Source: Armatimonadota bacterium (lineage in GTDB: Bacteria > Sysuimicrobiota > Sysuimicrobiia > Sysuimicrobiales > Kaftiobacteriaceae). From it: DNA of 64,000 nt. The notes beneath the pieces were generated by a model that saw nothing but the letters and a program-made list of their open reading frames with translations, was not told the DNA's origin and made no database searches. The stretch spans positions 1 to 64,000 of the forward strand of contig JAVHLZ010000009.1 of NCBI GenBank assembly GCA_031081675.1, read 5' to 3'. The position numbers and the translations under genes were made by a program. Positions 35,407-52,630 of the stretch are shown here, in pieces. How positions within the stretch are numbered: position 1 is the first letter of the stretch; each line of letters begins with the position of its first letter.

Positions 35407-36489
35407 GTGAACGCGGTCATGCCGGCGCTTGCGGACGTTCTGCAGATCGGCGCGGTGGCGGCGGGCGTGGACGTCGGCCGGGCCGCCATCAAGATCGCCG
35501 AGATCCGGCGGACCGCGCGCGGGGTGGAACTCCACCGCGCGGCAGTGGCGCCCACCCCGCCGGGAGCCGTGGCGGGGGGCGTGATCCTGGACCCTGCCGC
35601 CGTCGGATCCGCCGTGGACGCCCTGCGGCGGCGCACGGGGATCCGCTCGCGCCGCGCCGTGGTGGCGGTGACCGGCCAGAACGTCCTGGCCCGGGTCCTG
35701 CGCCTGCCACCCATTCCCGAGGAGGAAGTACGGCAGGCCATCCGCTGGGAGGCCGAGCGCCACCTGCCGATCCCCGTGGACGAGGCCGTCACCGACGTCC
35801 AGGCGGTGGGCGAGGTCACCGAGGACGGCCAGCGCCGCCTGGAGGTGCTGCTGGCCGCCGCGCCCGAGTCGGTCGTCCTCGCCCACGTCCAGGCGGTGGA
35901 GCGCGCCCGCATGACGGTGGAGGCGGTGGAGGTGGGCGCGCTGGCCATGGTGCGCGGGCTGGGCCACACCGACACCCGGGGCACGCGGGCCCTGGTCAAC
36001 CTGGGCGCGTCGACCACCGACGTGGCCGTGGTCCGCGACGGCGTGCCCCAGTTCACCCGTACGATCCCGGCCGGGCTGGAGACGGCGGCCGCAGCCGTGG
36101 GCCGCCTGGCCGGTGTGGACGCCGCCGCCGCGCAGCAGGTTCTGGCGCGCTACGGGCTGGGGTGGGACGAAAGCCTCCCCGAGCTGCCGCCGGGCACGTA
36201 CGCCACCGAGGTCACCGCGGCCCTGGAGGAGGTGGTGACCCAGCTGCGGCGCACCCTGGACTTCGTCCGCGCCCAGTTCGCCGGGGTCACGGTGTCCGAG
36301 ATCGTCCTGTGCGGCGGGGGCGCCCGGCTGCGCCACATGGACCGCCACCTGACCGCCGAACTGGACCTGCCGGTCACCGTCGGCGTCCCCCCGGTCCGGG
36401 CGCGCGCCGGCCGGCGGGGAGAACAGCACGACGCCATCTCCCCCCAGCTGGCCGTGGCGGTCGGGCTGGCGCTGCGGACGGTGGGGTGA
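35407..36489 (+). CDS. pilM: Type IV pilus assembly protein PilM
   Basis: 360 aa actin-like ATPase fold of the inner-membrane alignment complex. Motifs: AAGVDVGRAAIKIAEI (phosphate 1), IPEEEVRQAIRWEAERHLPIPVDEAV (conserved PilM segment) and ALVNLGASTTDVAVVRDG (phosphate 2). It binds the N-terminus of PilN in the cytoplasm. GTG 35407; ATG 35419 is an alternative. It heads pilM-pilN-pilO. Confidence 0.9.
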   Translation: MNAVMPALADVLQIGAVAAGVDVGRAAIKIAEIRRTARGVELHRAAVAPTPPGAVAGGVILDPAAVGSAVDALRRRTGIRSRRAVVAVTGQNVLARVLRLPPIPEEEVRQAIRWEAERHLPIPVDEAVTDVQAVGEVTEDGQRRLEVLLAAAPESVVLAHVQAVERARMTVEAVEVGALAMVRGLGHTDTRGTRALVNLGASTTDVAVVRDGVPQFTRTIPAGLETAAAAVGRLAGVDAAAAQQVLARYGLGWDESLPELPPGTYATEVTAALEEVVTQLRRTLDFVRAQFAGVTVSEIVLCGGGARLRHMDRHLTAELDLPVTVGVPPVRARAGRRGEQHDAISPQLAVAVGLALRTVG

Positions 36490-36558
36490 CAGGCCTGCCG
36501 ATGGAGGGCGCGCGGCGGGGTCGCCACATGTCGCGGGCGGGCGCCAGGGTGTCTTGAG

Positions 36559-37107
36559 GTGCGCATCGTCCTGAACCTGCTTCCGCCTTCGGTGGTCCAG
36601 CGCCGGCGCCGGGCCGCGCGCCGGCGGGTGCTGATCGGCCTGCCGCTGATCGGCGCCGCGGCGGCCGCCGGGGCGTGGGCGGTGATCCAGGTGTCGCTGC
36701 ACCAGGCCCGGGCGGCGGTGGAGGACGTCGGCCGGCAGCTGCAGGTCGTCCAGCCCATTGCGGTGGAGGTCCTGCGCCTGCAGGCGGAGATCGCCGACCT
36801 CGAGGAGCGCCGCCGCGCGCTGGCGGCCCTGGCCGGCCAGCAGGTTCCCCGTACTCCCGTGCTCGACGAGATCAGCCGGACCATCCCGCACGACGCCTGG
36901 TTGCAGTCCCTGACCATCGACGGGCAGACGGTGTCCCTGGGGGGCCAGTCGCTCACGCTGCGGTCGGTGGCGGAGTTCGCCTCCTCCCTGGAGGCCTCGC
37001 CGGTGTTCTCCGGAGTGCGGGTGGCGAGCCTCCAGCAGGTCTCCACCGCCCCGCGCCCCGTCGTCCAGTTCCGCATCGACGCCCGGCTGGAGGGCCGCGC
37101 CCCGTGA
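36559..37107 (+). CDS. pilN: Type IV pilus assembly protein PilN
   Basis: 182 aa bitopic membrane protein. A short cytoplasmic N-terminus with the PilN motif RIVLNLLPPSV that docks into PilM, one membrane helix (about 30-50), a coiled coil and a ferredoxin-like domain (LDEISRTIPHDAWLQSLTIDG). Its stop overlaps the pilO start (GTGA). Confidence 0.9.
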   Translation: MRIVLNLLPPSVVQRRRRAARRRVLIGLPLIGAAAAAGAWAVIQVSLHQARAAVEDVGRQLQVVQPIAVEVLRLQAEIADLEERRRALAALAGQQVPRTPVLDEISRTIPHDAWLQSLTIDGQTVSLGGQSLTLRSVAEFASSLEASPVFSGVRVASLQQVSTAPRPVVQFRIDARLEGRAP

Positions 37108-37652
37108 GCCCCCTGCGGCCACGGGAACGGACGCTGCTGGGCGCGGGCGCGGCGGTGCTGGCCGGGGTGCTCCTGGGTGGCCTGCTGTACCTGCCCGCCC
37201 TGCTGGACCTGACCGCCGCCCGGCGGGAGGTCGTACGGAAGAGCGCGGAGCTGCGCCGCGCGACCGCCCTGGCACAGCAGCGCCCGGAGGTGGAGAGTCG
37301 GTACGCCGCCGAACGGCGGGCCGCCGAGCAGCTGCTCACCCGCATCCCGCGCGAGCCCGACCTGCCCGACCTGATCGTGCGCCTGGACGGGGCGCTGAGC
37401 GGAAGCGGTGTCGAGCTGATGGAGGTCACGTTTCCCCCCGAGACGTCTTCCCCGGCCTCCCCGGCCGAACCCGCCCCGGTGAGCGCCCTGCCGGTGCAGA
37501 TCCGGGTGCGGGGACGCTATCCCCAGGTGCGCGCCCTGGTGGAGGCCATCGAGCGGTCCCCGCGCCTGCTGGTCATCGACCGCGTGATGGTGACCGGGGC
37601 CGAGGCAGGCGTCGTCGCCGAACTGCAGATGCGCGCACTGTACAGGCGGTGA
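37104..37652 (+). CDS. pilO: Type IV pilus assembly protein PilO
   Basis: 182 aa: one membrane helix near the N-terminus, a coiled coil (REVVRKSAELRRATALAQQRPEVESRY region) and a C-terminal ferredoxin-like fold with LPVQIRVRGRYPQVRALVEAIE. It forms a heterodimer with PilN. No pilP or pilQ follows, which is typical of monoderm pilus systems; alternatively they lie elsewhere. GTG start overlaps pilN. Confidence 0.9.
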   Translation: MSPLRPRERTLLGAGAAVLAGVLLGGLLYLPALLDLTAARREVVRKSAELRRATALAQQRPEVESRYAAERRAAEQLLTRIPREPDLPDLIVRLDGALSGSGVELMEVTFPPETSSPASPAEPAPVSALPVQIRVRGRYPQVRALVEAIERSPRLLVIDRVMVTGAEAGVVAELQMRALYRR

Positions 37653-41867: not shown

Positions 41868-41898
41868 TTGACTGTTCGACCTCGAACAGTGGTAAAGT
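41868..41898 (+). promoter_or_regulatory. Palindrome-containing promoter of the RecA-like/PolB cassette
   Basis: TTGACT (41868-41873) and extended -10 TGG-TAAAGT (41893-41898) with a 19-nt spacer. Overlapping the -35 end and spacer is a near-perfect palindrome at 41871-41890: arms ACTGTTCGA and TCGAACAGT around CC. It contains GTTC/GAAC half-sites, so a dimeric repressor probably binds. Confidence 0.65.
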
Positions 41899-41908
41899 CT
41901 GCTATGGG

Positions 41909-41922
41909 CGAACGTTTGTTCG
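41909..41922 (+). promoter_or_regulatory. LexA (SOS) box CGAAC-GTTT-GTTCG
   Basis: A perfect match to the Gram-positive LexA/DinR operator core GAAC-N4-GTTC with flanking C/G, located between the -10 box and the ATG at 41927. LexA would repress this operon until DNA damage. lexA itself is not in the window. Confidence 0.82.
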
Positions 41923-41926
41923 CATT

Positions 41927-42577
41927 ATGGTGCTGGATACCCGGATAGGACTGCCGGATCTCCCCGTCAGCGGCCCTGCGGTGTTCGCCGGAGACGACGC
42001 CTGCCTGACCGTGGGTCTCCTGGTGAGCCTGGGGGCGGTGCGGGAGGGGCGCCCGCTGCTGGTGGTGGACGGCGCCAACGCATTCGACCCGTTCCTGGTC
42101 GCCGATCTGGCGCGCCGGGGTGGCCTGCGGCCCCGGGCGCTGCTGGACCGCATCCGCCTCTCGCGGGTGTTCACCTGTCACCAGCTGGAGGCGCTGCTGC
42201 GGGGACGGCTCCTGGCTGCCGCCTCGCGGTGGGAGGCGGGAGCGGTGTACGTCTCCGGCCCGCTGGACCCGCTGCTGGACGAGGAGGTGCCGGTCGGCGA
42301 AGCCCGGCGGATCTTCCGCCTGATCCCGCCCACGGTGCGACAACTGCAGGGCGCAGGCTACCGGGTGGTGATTGCCTGCCCGCCGCCTCAGGCCGTCCCC
42401 GGCCGGGAGGAGTTCTTCCCGGCGCTGTGCCGGGAGGCCGGGTGGGTGTTCACCGTCGCCCGCCTGCCGGATGCCGGGGATCCCGGAGCCGTCCGCATCA
42501 CCTGCACGGCGCCCCGCCCGGCCGCGTGGACGTGGGAACCCCGCATCGGGTTGATCACGCCCCGGCGGTGGTGGTGA
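41927..42577 (+). CDS. Degenerate RecA/Rad51-superfamily protein (ImuA-like role proposed)
   Basis: 216 aa. The pattern VVDGANAFDPFLVADLARR ... LLDRIRLSRVFTCHQLEALL, in two adjacent blocks, resembles the RadA/Rad51 core after the first strand. The Walker A lysine motif is missing (FAGDDACLTVGLL occupies that place), so ATP hydrolysis is doubtful. It starts right after a LexA-type box, with no ribosome site, and is followed by a small protein and a B-family polymerase. By analogy with ImuA it may help load the polymerase at damaged DNA. The family assignment is from pattern recognition only. Confidence 0.65.
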   Translation: MVLDTRIGLPDLPVSGPAVFAGDDACLTVGLLVSLGAVREGRPLLVVDGANAFDPFLVADLARRGGLRPRALLDRIRLSRVFTCHQLEALLRGRLLAAASRWEAGAVYVSGPLDPLLDEEVPVGEARRIFRLIPPTVRQLQGAGYRVVIACPPPQAVPGREEFFPALCREAGWVFTVARLPDAGDPGAVRITCTAPRPAAWTWEPRIGLITPRRWW

Positions 42578-42652
42578 GGAGGCGGGAGTGCGGGAGGGGA
42601 GAACACGGGAGCGCGCATCGGATGGACACCACGAGAGATGGGGAGGGATCCG

Positions 42653-42955
42653 ATGGGACGGACGATCCAGACCATGACACAGCTGGTGGCCCAGGAGGAA
42701 GCCGCCTGGGCGCCGTTCCGGCGCGCGCTGCGCGCGGAGGACCGCGAGATCTTCGACCGGCTGTTTGCCGCCGCGCGGCACCACTCGGCGCCCGCCCACT
42801 ATGCCTCCCACGCCACGCCCTTTGACGCCATGCTGGTGGCCATGATCCTGGAGACGATGAAGGCCGTCGAGCAGGTGCGGCGGGACCTGGAACGGATGAA
42901 GGGCGAGGGCGGGGCTGCGGCGGGAGGGTGGAACGCTGAAGCGTTGGAACGTTGA
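42653..42955 (+). CDS. Small helical protein of the PolB cassette, unknown function
   Basis: 100 aa, predicted all-helical (WAPFRRALRAEDREIFDRLF, DAMLVAMILETMKAVEQVRRDL). ATG 42653 has GGGGAGGG upstream. It ends where the polymerase frame has already opened, suggesting coupled translation. I do not recognise the family. Its position between the RecA-like and polymerase genes suggests an accessory subunit. Confidence 0.7.
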   Translation: MGRTIQTMTQLVAQEEAAWAPFRRALRAEDREIFDRLFAAARHHSAPAHYASHATPFDAMLVAMILETMKAVEQVRRDLERMKGEGGAAAGGWNAEALER

Positions 42956-45311
42956 AGCGCGTTCCCCCCAGGCGGACCCGGGCCGTTCGGAGAATCCCGG
43001 ACCCCGGCATCTCGAGGGCTGGCTCTTCGACGTCTACCCCGACGCCTGGGGGATGGTGGTGTGGCTGCTGGAGACCTCCGGCCGCGCCCACCGCCTGCGC
43101 TATCCCTACGCGCCCACCCTGTACATGGCCGGATCCCGCCAGGCCCTCCGGGCGGCCCGCCGGGTGCTGGACCGCCTGGCCGCGCCGGTGACCTGCACGC
43201 CGGTTCTTCGCCGGGACCTGCGCAGCGGGGATGAGGTCCCCGTGGTGGCGGTCACCGTGGGGTCACCCCTGGCGTATCCGGCGGCGGCGCGGATGCTGAG
43301 CCGCGTGCCCGGCCTGACCGTGTACACCTGCGACATCCCCACTCCCCGGCTGTTCTTCTACGAGACCGGCCTGTTCCCGCTGGCCCGGTGCGCGGTGGCC
43401 TGTCGGGGAGACGTGATCCAGGAGGTGGACCTGCGCTCGCGCATCGAGGACCTGGAATACGACCTCCCGCCGCTGACCGTCCTGCGGATCCGCCCGGATC
43501 CGGACGGCCTGCCCGACGATCCCGACCTGCCGGTGCCCCACCCGGGCCACGGCCGGCCGGGGCGGCTGGAGGTCAGCGTGGACGGGGAGACCGTCGTGCT
43601 GGACGGCGACGACCCCGCCGACCTGGTCCGCAGCCTCCAGCGGATGCTGCAGCGGTACGACCCCGACATCATCCTGACCGAGTGGGGGGACGCGGTCCTG
43701 CTGCCGGGCCTGCTGCGCGAGGCGGCCCGGACCGGCCAGGACCTGGGCCTCAACCGCGACCCCGGCCGCCCCCTGCGGATCCGCCGCCCGCGCTCGTACG
43801 TGACCTACGGCCAGGTCGTCCACCAGGCCGGTGCGCGGCTGCTGGCCGGACGCTGGCACCTGGACCTGCGCAACTCCTTCATCTACGCCGAATCGGAACT
43901 GGCGGGGGTGCTGGAGGTGGCGCGGCTGTCCTGCATCCCGGTGCAGGATCTGGCCCGCACCTCCACCGGCACCGCCATCAGCTCCATGCAGCTGCGCCGG
44001 GCGGTGCAGGACGGCATCCTGGTCCCCTGGCAGAAGAGCGAGCCCGAAGAGTTCAAGACGGCCAGCCAGCTGCTCCTGACCGACAAGGGCGGGCTGACCT
44101 ACCAGCCCCTGGTGGGACTGTACGAGCAGGTGGGCGAACTGGACTTCTCCTCCATGTACCCCACCCTGATGGCCACCTACAACATCTCGCCCGAGACCGT
44201 GGGGTGCGGGTGCTGTCCGGAGTCCCGGGTGCCGGAGATCGGCGTGACCGTGTGCCGGCGGCGGCGCGGGCTGGTGCCCCAGGTGCTCGACCACCTGCTG
44301 GCCCGGCGGGCGTACTACAAGCGCCGCCGGCGGGAGACCGCGGGTAGCCAGCGCGCCCTGTACGACCAGCGGCAGACGGCCCTCAAGTGGTGCCTGGTGA
44401 CGTCGTTCGGCTACCTCGGGTACCGCAACGCCCGCTTCGGGCGCATCGAGGCGCACGAGGCGGTCACCGCCTACGCCCGGGAGATGCTGCTGCGGGCCAA
44501 AGAGACGGCCGAATCCCGCGGCTTCCGGATGCTGCACGCCCTGGTGGACTCCCTGTGGCTGTACCGCCCCGGCGCCACCCCTGCCGACTACGAGGACCTG
44601 GCGCAGGCCGTCAGCCGGGCCACGGGGCTGCCCATCGCCGTGGAGGGCGTGTACCGGTGGGTGGCCTTCCTGCCCTCCCGGACCCATCCCGGGGTGGGGG
44701 TGCCCAACCGCTACCTGGGCGTGTTCACCGACGGCACCACCAAAGTCCGCGGCATCGAGGCGCGCCGGTCGGACATGCCGGCCCTGGTGGTCCGCACCCA
44801 GGAGCGGATGCTGCGGCGCCTGTTCCGCTGTCCCACCCTGGCCGACGCCCGGGCGGCCCTGCCGGAGGTCCTGGCGGTGCTGGAGGACGCCCTGCTGCGG
44901 GTGCGGGCCGGCGAGGTGACGGCCGCCGACCTGGTGATCACTACCCGCCTGTCCCAGGAGGTGAGCCGGTACCGCCACAACACGGCACAGGCCCTGGCCG
45001 CCCGCGCCCTGGCCCGGGCGGGGGTCCGGGTGAGTCCGGGCGAGCCGGTGCAGTACATCCTCGTCGATGCCGGCGCGCGGGTGCCCCGGGACCGCGTGCG
45101 CCCCTACGGGCTGCGGGGAGACGACTGGCACTACGACCGGGAGGCCTACGCCACCCTGCTGCTGCGGGCGGCCGCCACGGTCCTGGAACCGTTCGGATAC
45201 GGCGAGGACCGCCTGCGGCGCGAGGTGTGGGAGCCGATCAGCGCGCCTGCTCCAGCAGCGTGGCGATCTCCCGGGCGTTGCGGGCGGACTGGCCCCGGTA
45301 GTGGTTGTTGA
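42936..45311 (+). CDS. Family-B DNA polymerase, divergent (PolB2-like)
   Basis: About 791 aa if CTG 42936 (GGGAGG 8 nt upstream) is used; ATG 43053 would drop the family-like N-terminus EGWLFDVYPDAWG. Polymerase motif A is DFSSMYPTLM (Asp at 44142), motif B KWCLVTSFGYLGY (44385), motif C HALVDSLWL (Asp at 44547) in place of YxDTDS, so the first Asp of motif C is lost. Exonuclease motifs I and II look degraded (LTVLRIRPD; TEWGDAVLLP). Downstream, RYLGVFTDGTTKVRGIEARRSD matches the thumb region. It probably has weak or specialised synthesis without proofreading. Its 3' end overlaps DUF72 by 74 bp, convergent. Confidence 0.85.
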   Translation: MKRWNVEARSPQADPGRSENPGPRHLEGWLFDVYPDAWGMVVWLLETSGRAHRLRYPYAPTLYMAGSRQALRAARRVLDRLAAPVTCTPVLRRDLRSGDEVPVVAVTVGSPLAYPAAARMLSRVPGLTVYTCDIPTPRLFFYETGLFPLARCAVACRGDVIQEVDLRSRIEDLEYDLPPLTVLRIRPDPDGLPDDPDLPVPHPGHGRPGRLEVSVDGETVVLDGDDPADLVRSLQRMLQRYDPDIILTEWGDAVLLPGLLREAARTGQDLGLNRDPGRPLRIRRPRSYVTYGQVVHQAGARLLAGRWHLDLRNSFIYAESELAGVLEVARLSCIPVQDLARTSTGTAISSMQLRRAVQDGILVPWQKSEPEEFKTASQLLLTDKGGLTYQPLVGLYEQVGELDFSSMYPTLMATYNISPETVGCGCCPESRVPEIGVTVCRRRRGLVPQVLDHLLARRAYYKRRRRETAGSQRALYDQRQTALKWCLVTSFGYLGYRNARFGRIEAHEAVTAYAREMLLRAKETAESRGFRMLHALVDSLWLYRPGATPADYEDLAQAVSRATGLPIAVEGVYRWVAFLPSRTHPGVGVPNRYLGVFTDGTTKVRGIEARRSDMPALVVRTQERMLRRLFRCPTLADARAALPEVLAVLEDALLRVRAGEVTAADLVITTRLSQEVSRYRHNTAQALAARALARAGVRVSPGEPVQYILVDAGARVPRDRVRPYGLRGDDWHYDREAYATLLLRAAATVLEPFGYGEDRLRREVWEPISAPAPAAWRSPGRCGRTGPGSGC

Positions 45312-46206
45312 ACATCAGGTACAGCCGATCCAGCTTCGGCGAAATCTCCCGCACCCGCTGCGCCCACGGCCGCAGCTCGTCGAGGGTGTAACAGTAGTCG
45401 TAGACCCGGCTGGTCGGCGCGCGGCGCTCCAGCATGGCCGGGTTGCGGCCGTGAAACCGCACCACGCTCCAGGACGTGGTCAGCTCCACGTCGGGGGGAG
45501 GCAGGTAGGCCCGCTGGACCATGTCCGGGACCACGTAGGCATAGCCCCGCCGCCGCAGGTAGTCCAGGAACCGCGAGCGGGCGGGCTCCGCCAGCCAGCT
45601 GCGGTGCCGGATCTCCACCGCCACCGGCCACCGGCGCAGGTAGGGCTCCCAGCGATCCAGGTGCTCCAGGATCTCGGGGCTGAAGCCGGCGCCTTTGGGG
45701 AACTGGAACAGGACGTAGCCCAGCCGGCCCGACCGCGCCAACGGCTCCAGGAACGCCGCGTAGTAATCCCAGCAGGCGATGAGCACTTCCTCGGGCAGGT
45801 CGCGGGGGCTCACCGACTCCGCCGACCGCGTGGACGCCGGCAGCAGCGCGGCGATCTCCCGGGGAAGGCGCCGGGGGTCGGTGCCGTGGCCGGTGAACAG
45901 GGCAAAGGCCTTGGTGGTGAAGACAAACCCCGGCGGCGTCCACTCCACCCACTGGGCCGCCCGCTCCCGCGGCTGCAGCGCGTGGTAGGTGGCATCCACC
46001 TCGACCACCGGGAAGACGGTGGCGTAGTACTGCAGCCGCCGGCGCGGGTCTGTGCCCACCCCCGGCGGATAGAACTGGCCTTCCCGGACGAAGTGCGGGT
46101 CGGCCCACGAGCAGGTGCCCACGTACACGCGGCACGAGCCGACGTGGAGCGGGCGCGCCGCCGGGGCCAGGTCCAGGGAGGTCTGATCGCCCGACGCCGG
46201 TGCCAT
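45238..46206 (-). CDS. DUF72 family protein (YecE-like)
   Basis: 322 aa TIM-barrel-like protein. Family hallmarks: VGTCSWADPHF near the N-terminus, VEVDATYHALQ, GFVFTTKAF, LFQFPKGAGFS, VAVEIRHRSWL, VVRFHGRN and the C-terminal LYLMFNNHYRGQSARNA. The biochemical activity is unproven, although an iron-sulphur or nuclease link has been suggested for relatives. ATG 46206 is favoured by GGGAGG upstream. It is convergent with the polymerase gene. Confidence 0.9.
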   Translation of the reverse strand: MAPASGDQTSLDLAPAARPLHVGSCRVYVGTCSWADPHFVREGQFYPPGVGTDPRRRLQYYATVFPVVEVDATYHALQPRERAAQWVEWTPPGFVFTTKAFALFTGHGTDPRRLPREIAALLPASTRSAESVSPRDLPEEVLIACWDYYAAFLEPLARSGRLGYVLFQFPKGAGFSPEILEHLDRWEPYLRRWPVAVEIRHRSWLAEPARSRFLDYLRRRGYAYVVPDMVQRAYLPPPDVELTTSWSVVRFHGRNPAMLERRAPTSRVYDYCYTLDELRPWAQRVREISPKLDRLYLMFNNHYRGQSARNAREIATLLEQAR

Positions 46207-46303
46207 CTCGTCGCCTCCCACTTTCTCAGCGTATCATGAAGACCGTCTGCCTGTCGCGGACCACTCGTTCGCCTGTGCCGGCAGGCCGTGTCGAGGCGGA
46301 TGC

Positions 46304-46443: not shown

Positions 46444-47778
46444 GTGAGATCTCGCCTGTGGCTGCGGTGGCTGTTCGTCGGCGCGCTGGCGCTGGCCGCG
46501 TGTCAGGTGGCCTTCCAGCCGGTGCGCCTGGTGCGGTGGACCCCCCAGTGGCAGCCGCCGCGCCTGCGGGTGACCCTGGGCCTGGACCTGCAGGGCGGCA
46601 GCTACCTGGTCCTGGAGGCCCAGGACACCCCGCGCACGCCCGCCACCCCGGAGGCCGTGGACGCGGTGATGAGCGTCATCGCCAACCGCATTGACCAGCT
46701 GGGGGTGGTGGAGCCCACCGTGCAGCGCCAGGGAGCCCGCCGCATCATCGTGGAGCTGCCGGGCATTCAGGACCCCGAGCGCGCCATCGAGCTGATCGGC
46801 AAGACCGCGCTGCTGGAGTTCGTGGACACCGGCACCACCCAGCTGCCCGAGGGGGCCCGGTGGTCCGCCGACGGCAAGACCGTCACCCTGCCCGCGCCCG
46901 GCGCGCAGCCCCTGGCGCTGGAGAAGAAGGTGATCCTGACCGGCGCCGACCTGGCCGACGCCCAGGCCGGCTTTGACCAGACCACGGGCGAGCCGATCGT
47001 CAACTTCCAGTTCAAAGGCCAGGGCGCCAAGACCTTTGAGGAGTTCACCGCCGCCCACATCGGCCAGTTCCTCACCATCGTCCTGGACAACGAGGTGATC
47101 TCCTCCCCGGTCATCCGCGACCGCATCACCGGCGGCCGCGGCCAGATCAGCGGCGGGTTCCGGGACCTCACCGAAGCCCGGGACCTGGCCGTGCTGCTGC
47201 GGGGAGGAGCCCTCCCGCTGCCGGTGGAGGTGGTCGAGCGCCGGTCGGTGGGGCCCACCCTGGGCCGGGACTCCCTGGAGCGCAGCCTGCGGGCCGGTGC
47301 GGTGGCCCTGGCCATGGTCTCCACCTTCATGGTCCTCCTCTACCGCCTGCCGGGCCTGCTGGCCACAGTCGCCCTGGGCCTGTACGGCCTCCTGCTGCTG
47401 GCGGCCCTGGTGGCGTTGGGAGCCACCCTCACGCTGCCGGGGATCGCCGGATTCATCCTGTCGGTGGGGATGGCCATCGACGCCAACGTCCTGATTTACG
47501 AGCGGGTGAAGGAGGAACTCCGTGCCGGCAAGTCGGTGGGCAGCGCCATCGCGTCCGGCTGGAGCCGCGCTCTGTCGGCCATCCTGGACAGCAACGTCAC
47601 CACCCTCCTGGGCGGCGCCGTCCTGTTCCTGCTGGGCACGGGGCCCATCAAGGGGTTCGCGGTGACGCTGGTCCTCGGCGTCGCCATCAGCATGCTCACC
47701 GCCGTGGTGATCACCCGCGTCTTCGTGGACAGCGCCGCCGGCGTCCTGCGGGCCCCCCGGCTGGGGTTCGGGCGCTAG
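46444..47778 (+). CDS. secD: Protein translocase subunit SecD
   Basis: 444 aa. It couples the proton gradient to late steps of Sec export, with SecF. One N-terminal membrane helix, the GLDLQGGSYLVLEA signature, the periplasmic P1 region (SVIANRIDQLGVVEPTVQRQG) and five C-terminal membrane helices with SVGMAIDANVLIYERVKEE. GTG start without a good ribosome site but the N-terminus fits the family. It lies 1 nt from secF. Confidence 0.95.
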   Translation: MRSRLWLRWLFVGALALAACQVAFQPVRLVRWTPQWQPPRLRVTLGLDLQGGSYLVLEAQDTPRTPATPEAVDAVMSVIANRIDQLGVVEPTVQRQGARRIIVELPGIQDPERAIELIGKTALLEFVDTGTTQLPEGARWSADGKTVTLPAPGAQPLALEKKVILTGADLADAQAGFDQTTGEPIVNFQFKGQGAKTFEEFTAAHIGQFLTIVLDNEVISSPVIRDRITGGRGQISGGFRDLTEARDLAVLLRGGALPLPVEVVERRSVGPTLGRDSLERSLRAGAVALAMVSTFMVLLYRLPGLLATVALGLYGLLLLAALVALGATLTLPGIAGFILSVGMAIDANVLIYERVKEELRAGKSVGSAIASGWSRALSAILDSNVTTLLGGAVLFLLGTGPIKGFAVTLVLGVAISMLTAVVITRVFVDSAAGVLRAPRLGFGR

Positions 47779-47779
47779 C

Positions 47780-48739
47780 ATGGAGACGCGGTCCTGGGAC
47801 ATCATCGGCCGCCGGCGGTGGGGGTACGCCCTGTCGCTGCTGATCATCCTGCCGGGCCTGGTGGCCCTGCTGACCCGGGGCCTCAACCTCGGCATCGACT
47901 TCACCGGGGGGACGCTGCTGGACGTCCGCCTGGGGCGGGACGCCCCGCTGGCGGAGGTCCGGACCACCCTGCAGGCCTTCGGCCTGGCCGACGCGATCAT
48001 CCAGAAGTCGCCCGACCGCCCCCGGCAGGTCCTCATCCGGACGCCTCCCCTGGACGAGGCCACCACCGCCCGAGTGACGGCCACCCTGGCCCGGCACTTC
48101 GGGGGGGCGGAGGTCCTCCTGGCCGAGCGGGTCGGCCCCACGGTGGGCCGGGAGCTGCGCACCCGGGCCATGGTGGCCGTGGTGCTGGGGTTGCTGCTGC
48201 AGGTGGTGTACATCAGCTGGCGGTTCCGCTCGGTCCGCTTTGCCGTGACGGCGGACATCGCCCTGGTCCACGACCTCCTCGTGGTCGTGGGCCTGTACGC
48301 GCTGCTGGGCATCCAGGTGGACAGCTCGTTCGTGGCGGTGCTGCTCACGGTGGTCGGCTACTCCATCAACGACACCGTGGTCATCTTCGACCGGATTCGG
48401 GAGAGCCAGGCGGCCTTCCGCGGCCGCACCCCCTTCGACCGGCTCGTCAACCGCAGCATCCTCGAAGTGCTGGTGCGCTCCCTGACCACGGGGCTGGGAG
48501 CGCTGATGGCCATCGGGGCCATCTACTTCCTGGGCGGGGTCACGCTGCGGGACTTCGCCTTCGGCCTGGGGGTGGGGGTCCTGACCGGCACCTACTCCTC
48601 GATCTTCGTGGCCTCGCCCCTGCTGGTGGAGTGGGAGCGGTGGACGGCCCGGGCCCGCGGGCCCCAGCCGGCCGCCGCCGCCCGCCCGGCGGGGACCAAG
48701 AGGATATCCCCGTCCGGGTCGAAAAGGACACTTCCATGA
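47780..48739 (+). CDS. secF: Protein translocase subunit SecF
   Basis: 319 aa, six membrane segments. N-terminal GLNLGIDFTGGTLLDVRL, then SVGPTV-like RVGPTVGRELR, and the C-terminal GYSINDTVVIFDRIRES that is diagnostic of SecF. Adjacent to secD. The stop overlaps the following lapA-like ATG. Confidence 0.95.
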   Translation: METRSWDIIGRRRWGYALSLLIILPGLVALLTRGLNLGIDFTGGTLLDVRLGRDAPLAEVRTTLQAFGLADAIIQKSPDRPRQVLIRTPPLDEATTARVTATLARHFGGAEVLLAERVGPTVGRELRTRAMVAVVLGLLLQVVYISWRFRSVRFAVTADIALVHDLLVVVGLYALLGIQVDSSFVAVLLTVVGYSINDTVVIFDRIRESQAAFRGRTPFDRLVNRSILEVLVRSLTTGLGALMAIGAIYFLGGVTLRDFAFGLGVGVLTGTYSSIFVASPLLVEWERWTARARGPQPAAAARPAGTKRISPSGSKRTLP

Positions 48740-49020
48740 TCGTCGTCGGCCTGCTGCTGGCCGCCGCATTCGCGGTGTTCGTCTGGCAGAACCGGACGCC
48801 GGTGACCGTCGCCTTCCTGTCCTGGCGCTACGACACCACCCTCGGCATCGCCGTGGTGGCGGCGCTGGCTGCGGGAGCGCTGGCGATGTACCTGGTGGCC
48901 CTGGTCCGCGAACAGCGGCTGCGGGCGCTCCTGCGCACCGCCGAGTCCCGCACCCGGGCGGCGGAGTCGCGGCTGCGGGAGGTGGAGCGACAGCGGGAGG
49001 CCGCCGAGGACCAGACCTGA
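48736..49020 (+). CDS. LapA-domain (DUF1049) membrane protein
   Basis: 94 aa. Two membrane helices (IVVGLLLAAAFAVFVWQNRTPV with the family WQN motif, and AVVAALAAGALAMYLVALV) followed by a charged coiled coil. In enterobacteria LapA/LapB regulate lipopolysaccharide assembly; here the role is unknown. It overlaps secF by 4 nt (ATGA). Confidence 0.85.
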   Translation: MIVVGLLLAAAFAVFVWQNRTPVTVAFLSWRYDTTLGIAVVAALAAGALAMYLVALVREQRLRALLRTAESRTRAAESRLREVERQREAAEDQT

Positions 49021-49072
49021 CCGGACGCGTCCGGGTCGTCCGTCGGACCCGGCGGCGCCGCCCCGTTCGCCG

Positions 49073-52000
49073 GTGAGTTCGCTCATCCCTCCCGGCACCG
49101 TTCTCCGGGACGGCCCACCCGCGCGGTGGGTCGTCCTCCCGCCTGCCCCGCAGGCGGATGACCTGGCGCGGGCGCTGGGCCTCCACCCGGTGGCCGCGCG
49201 CATCCTCTGCGCCCGCGGCCAGGCGGCTCCCGCCCAGGCCCGGCGGTTCCTGGACTGCCCCCTGGACGACCTGGAGGATCCCGAGCGCATCGTGGACATT
49301 CCCCGCGCGGCCGACCGCCTGGCGGCGGCGGTGCGACGCGGGGAGCCGATCGCCGTCTACGGCGACTACGACGCCGACGGGGTCTGCGGGACGGCCATCC
49401 TCCTGCGGGGCCTGGCGCAGGTGGGCGCGGCGGTGCGCTTTCTCATCCCCCACCGGCTGCGGGACGGCTACGGAGTGCGCGACGCGCTCCTTCTTGCCCT
49501 GGCAGACGACGGCCACCGCCTGGTGGTGACCGTAGACTGCGGCGTCACCGCCGTGGACGAGGTGGCCCGGGCCGTCTCCCGGGGGCAGGAGGTCATCGTC
49601 GTGGACCACCACCAGCCCGGACACCGCCTCCCGGCGGCTGCGGCGGTGGTGGACCCCTGGAGGGCCGACGCGCCGGGTTCCTTCCGGGAGTACGCGGCCG
49701 CGGGGTTGGCCTTCCAGCTCCTGCGGGCAGTCCGCCGCCGGCTGGGGGTGCCGGACCTGCCGGCCGACGTGCTGGACCTGGCCGCGGTGGGCACGATCGC
49801 CGACGTGGTGCCCCTCCGCGGACCCAACCGCATCCTGGCCCGGTGGGGGTTGCACAGACTGTCCACCGGACCGTGCGCCGGCCTGGCCGCCCTGGCGGCC
49901 GCGGCCGGACTGACGGGGGAGATCACCGCGCGCCACGTGGGATTCATCCTGGCCCCGCGGCTGAACGCGGCAGGGCGTCTGGCCGACGCCGCAGCCGCGG
50001 TGCGGCTGCTGACCACCGAGGATCCGGCGGAGGCCGGCGCGCTGGCCGGCCAGCTGGACGCCCTCAACCAGCAGCGCCGGGCCCTGTGCGACCAGATCCT
50101 GGACCAGGCCCTCCAGCAGGTGGCCGCCGGAGGCCTGGAGCGGGCGCCGGCCGTGGTGGTGGCCGGAGAGGGGTGGCATCCCGGCGTCCTCGGCATCGTC
50201 GCGGGCCAGCTCTGTGAGCGTTACTACCGGCCGGCGGTGGTCCTGACCATCCAGGAAGGCCGGGCCCGGGGGTCGGCCCGCAGCATTCCGGCGCTCCACC
50301 TGGTCCAGGCGCTGGCCGACTGCGCCGACGTGCTGGAACGATACGGGGGACACGCCCAGGCCGCCGGGGTGGAGGTGCGGGCCGACCGGATCGAGGAGTT
50401 CGCCCGGCGCTTCACCGGAGCGGTGGCGGCCCGCCTCCGGCCCGACGACCTGGTCCCCACTCTGACCATCGACGCCGAGATCCGTCTGTCCGACCTCACC
50501 CTCGAGCTGGCCGAACAGCTGCGGCGGATGGAGCCGTTCGGCGCGGGCAACCCGGAACCCATCCTGGCCTGCCGGGGGTTGGTGGCCCTCGCCACCCGGG
50601 CGGTCGGCGACGGCCAGCACCTGCGCCTGGGCGTCACCGACGGCCTGTCCTACGCCGAGGCGGTGGGGTTCCACATGGGCGACGCCTCCGAGGTGCTGGC
50701 GTTCACCCGCGCCACGGTGGACCTGGCGGGCGCCCTCGCCGTGGACCCCTGGACCGATCCGCCGCGGCCGCACCTGGTGGTGCGGGACCTGGTGGCCCCC
50801 GGCCTGGATCTGGACGAGGTGCTCAGCGACGGGCGGCTGCTCCTGGAGAGGCTGTTCGCCCGCGCCGCCGACTACCTCGCCGACGACGCCCGGGCCGTGG
50901 AGCAGGCGGAGGCATTCTTCACCAAGGTGGTGGGGGTCACGTTCGAGGGCCGCCAGCAGGTGGTGGCAGGTCTGCGGCCCGGGGACGCGCTGCGCCTGCG
51001 CCGGGAGCCGCGCAACCCCCACGACCCCCATGCCGTGCAGGTGCTGACCGCGTCCGGAGTCCCCGTCGGCTACCTCAGCGCCCGCCTGGCCGGCCGGATC
51101 GCGCCGTCGCTGGACGCCGGCGTCCGCTACGCCGTCACCGTCGCCCAGGTCACCGGCGGCGGGGACCGCCCTCACGGCCTGAACATCTCCGTGCACAGGC
51201 AGGACGACGCCGGGGACCTCGGGCCCCGGCGGGTCGCCTGTGCGGGAGACCCCCCGCACGCGCTGGTGGACCGCCTCCGCCCGCACCTTTTGGGGGACCG
51301 GCCGCTGCGGGACGTCCAGCGACGCGTTGTGGACCTGCTGCTGTCGGGGCGCCCGGTGGCGGGAGTCGTGGGGCCGGCCGCCGAGCGGCGGGCGGTGATG
51401 GGGGTCGCCGGGGCGTGCTGGGCGGCGGCCGGATGCGGCCTGGCGGTGCTGGCGGTACCGCTCGCCAGCCAGGTGGACCGGTGGTACGAGCGCCTGGCGC
51501 CCCGCCTGCGGAGGCTGGGCATCTCCTGCGCGCGCGCCCACGGAGCCCTGGGGTGGCGGGCGCGGCAGCGGCTGGCCGGCGTGGCCCGCGAGGGACCGGC
51601 CGTCGTCCTGTGCAGCCTGGAGTATCTGCGCGCCACCCTCGCGGGCGAGGCGGAGGTGGAGCTGCGCCCGTCTTTGCTTGTGGTGGATTGCGAACCTACA
51701 ATAGACGGTACTACGCTGGATCTGGACGCGGCGGGCGGGCCCGCAGCGGTCCTGGGAGGCCGGGCGGACGCGGTCCGCCGGTGGATGCGGGCGGCCGAGG
51801 TCGTCCGGGACGAGGCCGTGCGGCCGCAGCTGGGGCTGGTGGACCGCCGCGGGATCGCCGCCGCAGAGCGGGAGGAGATGATCGCCCGGATCGCCGGGCG
51901 AGGGGAGAAGACTGTGGTGTACGTGGGCACGCGGCCGCAGGCGGTGGAGCTGGCGCGGCGCCTGCGGGAGGCCGCCGGCGGGCAGGTGGCTTACTATCAC

Positions 52001-52630
52001 GATGGCCTGCCGCTGCGGGTGCGGGAGGTGATCGAGCAGCTGCTCGCCGACGGCAAGATCCGGACCCTGGTGGCCGCCGACCTGCCGGGCGCCGTCCCTG
52101 TGGACCTCCGCCAGATGGTGGTGGCGGGAATCCCGGCGCACCGGGCAGACCTGGTGGACCTGATCGCCGCCGCCGGGAGGGACGGGCGGCAGGCCGCGGT
52201 GACGCTGGCCTGCCGGCGGGAGGACGTCGGCGACCTGCGGGCCGCTGTCTCCGCCCGGCACCCGGCCCGGGACGTCCTGGCTGCCCTGTACCGGGCGGTG
52301 CGGGCGCGTGCGGAGCGCGCGGGCGAGATGAGCTGGCCCGACGAGGGGCTGGCCGCCGACCTCCGCCAGGCGGGCATCGGCTCCCGGACGGCCTCCGTCG
52401 GCCTGGAGATCCTGGCCGAAGCCGGGGTCCTGACCCGCGAGTACGACGGGGAGCGGTGGCGGATCTCGCTGGTCCCGGGGGGGCGGCGCGAGCTGGCCAC
52501 ATCGCTGCGCTACGCCGAAGGGCGCCGCGAGGAGGCGGCGGCCGCCGACGTGGCCCGGTGGGCGTTCGGGCCGCTGGTGGACATTCTGACGGAGGCGGCC
52601 GGGCCGGCGGACGGAGGCATCCCGCGGTGA
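49073..52630 (+). CDS. recJ: RecJ exonuclease fused to HIRAN and inactive RecQ-like helicase domains
   Basis: 1185 aa, about twice a normal RecJ. Residues 1-560 are a 5'-3' single-strand exonuclease with DYDADG (98-103), TVDCGVT, DHH (179-181), DHHA1 (GWHPGVLGIVAGQL, YGGHAQAAGV) and the OB fold. Residues about 615-710 are a HIRAN domain (GVTFEGRQ ... REPRNPHDPHAV ... VGYLSARLA). Residues about 745-1090 resemble a RecQ-type SF2 helicase, but Walker A (GVVGPAAERRAVM) lacks GKT and motif II reads VVDCEP; YVGTRPQAVELARRLR and AYYHDGLP keep the C-terminal lobe. GTG 49073 has no clear ribosome site. It overlaps rel by 4 nt. Confidence 0.9.
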   Translation: MSSLIPPGTVLRDGPPARWVVLPPAPQADDLARALGLHPVAARILCARGQAAPAQARRFLDCPLDDLEDPERIVDIPRAADRLAAAVRRGEPIAVYGDYDADGVCGTAILLRGLAQVGAAVRFLIPHRLRDGYGVRDALLLALADDGHRLVVTVDCGVTAVDEVARAVSRGQEVIVVDHHQPGHRLPAAAAVVDPWRADAPGSFREYAAAGLAFQLLRAVRRRLGVPDLPADVLDLAAVGTIADVVPLRGPNRILARWGLHRLSTGPCAGLAALAAAAGLTGEITARHVGFILAPRLNAAGRLADAAAAVRLLTTEDPAEAGALAGQLDALNQQRRALCDQILDQALQQVAAGGLERAPAVVVAGEGWHPGVLGIVAGQLCERYYRPAVVLTIQEGRARGSARSIPALHLVQALADCADVLERYGGHAQAAGVEVRADRIEEFARRFTGAVAARLRPDDLVPTLTIDAEIRLSDLTLELAEQLRRMEPFGAGNPEPILACRGLVALATRAVGDGQHLRLGVTDGLSYAEAVGFHMGDASEVLAFTRATVDLAGALAVDPWTDPPRPHLVVRDLVAPGLDLDEVLSDGRLLLERLFARAADYLADDARAVEQAEAFFTKVVGVTFEGRQQVVAGLRPGDALRLRREPRNPHDPHAVQVLTASGVPVGYLSARLAGRIAPSLDAGVRYAVTVAQVTGGGDRPHGLNISVHRQDDAGDLGPRRVACAGDPPHALVDRLRPHLLGDRPLRDVQRRVVDLLLSGRPVAGVVGPAAERRAVMGVAGACWAAAGCGLAVLAVPLASQVDRWYERLAPRLRRLGISCARAHGALGWRARQRLAGVAREGPAVVLCSLEYLRATLAGEAEVELRPSLLVVDCEPTIDGTTLDLDAAGGPAAVLGGRADAVRRWMRAAEVVRDEAVRPQLGLVDRRGIAAAEREEMIARIAGRGEKTVVYVGTRPQAVELARRLREAAGGQVAYYHDGLPLRVREVIEQLLADGKIRTLVAADLPGAVPVDLRQMVVAGIPAHRADLVDLIAAAGRDGRQAAVTLACRREDVGDLRAAVSARHPARDVLAALYRAVRARAERAGEMSWPDEGLAADLRQAGIGSRTASVGLEILAEAGVLTREYDGERWRISLVPGGRRELATSLRYAEGRREEAAAADVARWAFGPLVDILTEAAGPADGGIPR

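Follow-up and report, generated by a model that had tools for sequence, protein, structure and literature searches.

A predicted LexA-repressed iRadA-PPB2-PolB2 translesion operon behind an SOS-type box conserved across Sysuimicrobiota

A three-gene operon encoding an inactivated RadA/Rad51 homologue (iRadA), a small helical protein (PPB2) and the B-family DNA polymerase PolB2 was predicted in 2014 for archaea and some bacteria (Makarova; PMC4104785), and a heteropentameric 'PolB2 mutasome' was modelled in 2025 (Timinskas; PMC11791011). The latter study reported iRadA-PPB2-PolB2 as the sole gene order in bacteria and an enrichment of lexA and DUF72 genes near polB2 (PMC11791011). Some members of the module only have a sliding-clamp motif in the C-terminus of iRadA or PolB2. 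The archaeal polymerase Dpo2 is reported to be active as an extender and to be needed for targeted mutagenesis (PMC8764526, PMC7390963).

Here we present a locus that belongs to this module. In the window (the whole stretch of DNA analysed, 64 kb), three + strand genes stand behind a promoter and a perfect GAAC-N4-GTTC box, as the earlier note on this DNA had described, and they encode iRadA, PPB2 and PolB2. The order iRadA-PPB2-PolB2 on one strand is conserved in relatives from the phylum, a conservation on which that note had staked its interpretation, and it recurs in Nitrospirae, Nitrospinota and Ignavibacteriae loci. Relatives carrying the name Terrabacteria group bacterium ANGP1 are here taken to be CSP1-3/Sysuimicrobiota. 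Nearly all testable sequence hallmarks of the bacterial PolB2 mutasome are present at the locus, including the bacterial gene order, the MGRT arm, the lost first DxD aspartate (LVD), the D(K/R) loop (DKGG) and the Walker A loss of an inactive iRadA, and the likeness extends to a DUF72 neighbour and a link to LexA. Because these hallmarks match the published module (PMC4104785, PMC11791011), the locus is a bacterial copy of a described, archaea-derived DNA-damage-bypass module, and the system itself is not new. The earlier note knew of no characterised bacterial example; this seems to hold insofar as bacterial members are treated only computationally in the literature found, and fails in that the operon, the lexA link and the mutasome reading had all been published (PMC4104785, PMC11791011). 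New here are the module's predicted control by a LexA-type box and its distribution within the phylum, for which no earlier description of occurrence or regulation was found in the open-licence literature, a search that could miss an earlier report.

The first gene (41927..42577, + strand) encodes iRadA, a protein of 216 aa whose single-sequence similarity to Rad51 is sub-threshold only. A profile of 23 homologues, two of them archaeal, matches RadA structures of the PDB (E=3e-11), and the predicted monomer (pLDDT 91) matches DMC1, RAD51 and RadA in Foldseek searches, with DMC1 as top PDB match (E=1.8e-9), which bears out the RecA/Rad51-like protein without Walker A first read from the letters. 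Alignment, profile and predicted structure agree in lacking the N-terminal helical domain and the Walker A/ATPase motifs. Since two residues alone join a strand (18-22) to the next helix (25-35) in the model, leaving no room for a P-loop, Walker A is physically absent. The C-termini of same-family iRadA proteins follow EPQIG[LM]I..RRWW and that of the window is EPRIGLITPRRWW, with no clear QLxLF; because RIGLI replaces QIG[LM]I in the window's protein, a beta-clamp contact of iRadA is doubtful.

The second gene (42653..42955, + strand) encodes PPB2. The earlier description of a 100-aa helical protein stands, and its start, placed at 42638, moves to 42653 on account of the invariant MGRT with which the protein begins. 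Across 20 PPB2 homologues 16 columns are invariant, comprising MGRT and 12 other residues. The monomer model is helical (pLDDT 80) and found no fold match in the PDB, so the reported likeness of PPB2 to sigma-factor N-termini was not reproduced.

The third gene (42936..45311, + strand) encodes a PolB2-type B-family polymerase, as proposed, with support from the family model NF004416 (E=1e-122) and from a match to Pyrococcus PolB (E=1.5e-51) accompanied by alignment of the motifs. Its start had been put at 43053, and this part did not hold: an ORF beginning there misses the conserved N-terminus LEGWLFDVYPD, inside which the first in-frame ATG falls. The frame is open from 42900 and offers no ATG, GTG or TTG until 43053, and our best guess for the start is the CTG at 42936, behind GGGAGGGTGG, which is the likeliest candidate from the sequence. 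Its 3' end overlaps by 74 nt that of a convergent gene (45238..46221, - strand) encoding a DUF72 protein (PF01904, E=1.8e-53). A DUF72 gene also lies downstream of PolB2 in 9 further phylum genomes and is a recurrent neighbour of this polymerase.

In PolB2, motif A reads LDFSSMYP, motif C reads HALVDS, with the first DxD aspartate lost (LVD), and the loop reads TDKGG. At exonuclease motif II, NGDNF is aligned to WGDAV, the remaining exonuclease motifs being unaligned in the sequence alignment, and proofreading has probably been lost. A clamp motif was not seen by eye in the tail. The replaced aspartate and the apparent loss of exonuclease motif II could mean that PolB2 is catalytically dead and that the operon, still under SOS control, encodes a complex with a structural or regulatory role where forks stall, and the PolB2 family has indeed been called inactivated (PMC4104785). 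However, PolB2 retains its motif A aspartate and the second aspartate of motif C, and archaeal Dpo2, with a substitution of this class, is reported to work as an extender polymerase (PMC8764526, PMC7390963, PMC11791011), which makes a dead enzyme unlikely. Sulfolobus islandicus PolB2/Dpo2 shares the polymerase family, the loss of the first DxD aspartate, the partner proteins and a proposed role in damage tolerance, although induction in the archaeon passes through Orc1-2 and not LexA. By contrast, Escherichia coli DNA polymerase II (PolB), like the window's PolB2 as proposed in being a B-family, SOS-inducible, extender-type translesion polymerase, differs from it as a single subunit with active proofreading and an intact DxD, and the window's PolB2 matches the Pol II model far more weakly (NF004421, E=5e-19) than NF004416.

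Upstream of iRadA, a putative promoter (41868..41898, + strand) can be read from the sequence, with a -35 element TTGACT at 41868-41873 and a -10-like TAAAGT at 41893-41898 separated by a spacing of 19; most same-family relatives also have a TTGAC... element and GGTANAGT in their promoters. The palindrome of the earlier 'palindromic promoter' is real (CTGTTCGA-CC-TCGAACAG, 41872..41889, in the -35/-10 spacer), and only its right part is conserved among same-family relatives, the left arm being missing from the 7 other same-family promoters. Because one arm alone is kept, the palindrome was rejected as a second operator, and as such it is probably not a functional unit. The conserved right part lies inside CGAACAGTGGTA (41883..41894, + strand), an element composed of an intact CGAAC half-site and GT, which occurs in 8/8 promoters of the window's family (f1) and is missing from the corresponding position in promoters of the other families; it is possibly a weak second LexA operator or the site of another factor. 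The LexA-type SOS box itself, CGAACGTTTGTTCG (41909..41922), assigned from its conservation and its recurrence at SOS genes, lies 3' of the -10 and 4 nt from the annotated iRadA ATG at 41927, and therefore leaves little room for a Shine-Dalgarno sequence.

The CGAAC-N4-GTTCG motif is the Gram-positive type of LexA box, which LexA of Bacillus subtilis recognises. In the window's genome, two LexA proteins score above the TIGR00498 cut-off and carry the S24 domain, and absence of LexA, which would have spoken against SOS control, was not what we found. In 2.29 Mb the genome holds 7 perfect CGAACN4GTTCG sites, whereas the reversed control pattern gives none, and further perfect boxes stand just upstream of ruvC, dnaB, a DEAD-box helicase gene and a radical-SAM gene. 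RecA is also encoded, with a one-mismatch box in the -35/-10 spacer of its gene, and a box with one mismatch likewise precedes each of the two lexA genes. Two other perfect sites were set aside as probable chance matches, one (L004) apparently within a coding region and one (L006) at an ABC-type substrate-binding protein read from its ORF. The second, unexplained element kept in family f1 promoters leaves some room for a non-LexA factor, such as another repressor, that would bind the box and place the operon outside the SOS response; yet the identity of the motif as a LexA box, the two LexA proteins and the recurrence of the motif before recA, lexA, ruvC and, in other phylum genomes, ImuA-ImuB-DnaE2 make such a factor quite improbable, and LexA is the more likely ligand.

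Across the phylum, the box was sought in the 17 genomes for which the sequence upstream of iRadA is available, the window's genome included. It was present in 17/17, perfect in 15 and with one mismatch (CAAAC...GTTCG) in 2, where composition alone predicts ~0.005 perfect boxes in 17 x 250 nt; pairwise identity among the 17 genomes is 0.77-0.88 inside the box and about 0.28 in its flanks. This conservation is far beyond chance. Furthermore, the box occupies the -35/-10 spacer in families f2, f4 and f6, as TTGACATA-box-TATAAT, and lies 3' of the -10 in the window's family. Retention of the box while the surrounding promoter shifted is, from these alignments, difficult to account for unless the box is functional. 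That it might be a functionless chance palindrome, inherited with the promoter, could draw on the 7 perfect sites of the genome, at least one of which is apparently coding, but flanks at background identity around a near-invariant box, and a position relative to -35/-10 that differs between families, reduce this to a negligible probability. Outside the phylum, the sequence immediately 5' of the operons in Ignavibacteriae and Nitrospinota gave no match to the box, though LexA may recognise another motif there; in the Nitrospirae locus lexA adjoins the operon. The published link between the module and LexA is such a neighbouring lexA, whereas in this phylum the link is a conserved operator, with no lexA seen beside the PolB2 operon.

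The distribution of the module was contrasted with that of ImuA-ImuB-DnaE2, in which, as here, a RecA-like accessory comes first and an error-prone polymerase last, and which stands behind the same LexA box in the phylum, but whose polymerase is of family C instead of B and which has ImuB (Y-family-like) where PPB2 stands. In the window's genome a single DnaE and a single Y-family polymerase, of DinB type, make up the C- and Y-family polymerases, so that neither DnaE2 nor ImuB was found. Other phylum genomes carry a second DnaE adjoining a weak Y-family match. Four of these loci, examined in detail, hold ORFs that resemble ImuA, ImuB and DnaE2, arranged in this order; for the remaining Imu loci the assignment comes from a second DnaE paired with a weak Y-family match. 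In one of the loci (G010) DnaE2 scores above the error-prone DnaE2 cut-off, and its partners give an ImuA match below the cut-off of that model and an IMS match above its own. The box or a GTACG variant lies upstream of all 15 Imu loci and also of a sixteenth, which sits on a broken contig (G021). Among 43 phylum genomes, PolB2 is found in 22, Imu in 16, neither in 5 (two of them incomplete) and both in 0; the canonical ImuA-ImuB-DnaE2 was thus not found in any of the 22 PolB2-bearing genomes examined, two of which (G003 and G014) hold, besides PolB2, a different PolY-DnaE pair with a box nearby.

A naive hypergeometric test gives P values for this exclusion of 8e-8 when genomes are counted and 4e-4 when genera are. 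On the DnaE1 tree, PolB2 changes state 5 times and about 2-3 independent pairs are usable, all informative pairs being exclusive; with so few changes and pairs, a tree-aware test cannot reach significance. A swap between PolB2 and Imu is suggestive, with few independent events behind it. We consider the chances even that the PolB2 complex replaces ImuA-ImuB-DnaE2 as the SOS mutagenesis machine of the phylum, the two unrelated mutasomes exchanging behind a like LexA operator and never being kept together.

Taken together, we interpret the locus as a LexA-repressed operon encoding a predicted iRadA-PPB2-PolB2 translesion-synthesis complex, with a rough probability of 0.87. LexA would repress the operon until DNA damage, when RecA filaments would trigger its self-cleavage, clearing the box that lies between the promoter and the start codon and allowing transcription of the three genes. 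PolB2 would then bind iRadA by means of an oligomerisation motif like that of RadA, a PPB2 trimer would place its MGRT arm near the polymerase active site, and together the three proteins would extend distorted primer ends beyond lesions, at a mutagenic cost. Formation of the complex is carried over from published models and the extender activity from archaeal Dpo2 by analogy; LexA binding and damage induction are what we infer here from the sequence. The earlier proposal, in which a PolB2-like and Dpo2-like module serves damage tolerance under SOS control as a counterpart of ImuA-ImuB-DnaE2, agrees with the literature and with these sequence tests.

In the literature found, SOS control of bacterial PolB2 had previously been argued from neighbouring lexA genes, and conservation of an operator across a phylum now supports it. 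Behind this conserved LexA-type box, the PolB2 operon appears to hold the place that ImuA-ImuB-DnaE2 occupies in sister lineages, and a RecA-like partner is common to both mutasomes. The apparent exchange of B- and C-family mutasomes behind one operator would make it a testable idea that SOS mutagenesis is a role that may be filled by different polymerase families.

In several relatives, PolB2 (the B-family polymerase) is interrupted at the polymerase motif B (KWCLVT/SFGY), after PolB2 residue ~450, by an in-frame insertion 166-469 aa long; the loci concerned are L045, L046, L032 and L034 of the genomes G008, G006, G017 and G032, respectively. Both of the insertions tested matched intein splicing domains, and the largest one also includes a LAGLIDADG endonuclease; the PolB2 of the window is devoid of the motif B insertion. 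An intein-like domain was also observed in the replicative helicase gene dnaB of the genome that holds the window (G000; locus L007, G000:C22), the promoter of which displays a perfect LexA-type box (CGAAC-N4-GTTCG). The same genome encodes two LexA proteins (L009, G000:C5; L010, G000:C2), each lexA gene being preceded by a LexA-type box with one mismatch. In addition, two genomes with PolB2 harbor a distinct PolY-DnaE gene pair (L117 in G014 and L131 in G003), associated in both cases with a LexA-type box; in L117, a transposase-like ORF separates the PolY and DnaE genes.

Judging from ORF translations, the regions surrounding the operon (35407-37652 and 46444-52630) read as housekeeping genes, including PilM/PilN/PilO-like, SecD, SecF and RecJ-like genes. 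Within the promoter of the iRadA (inactivated RadA/Rad51) operon, the element CGAACAGTGGTA (41883-41894) lies between the -35 and -10 and is kept in all eight same-family promoters, the window's included; it may perhaps represent a weak second operator. Same-family iRadA proteins end with a conserved C-terminal tail, EP(Q/R)IG(L/M)I..RRWW (within 42500-42577 in the window), which could possibly be a degenerate clamp motif.
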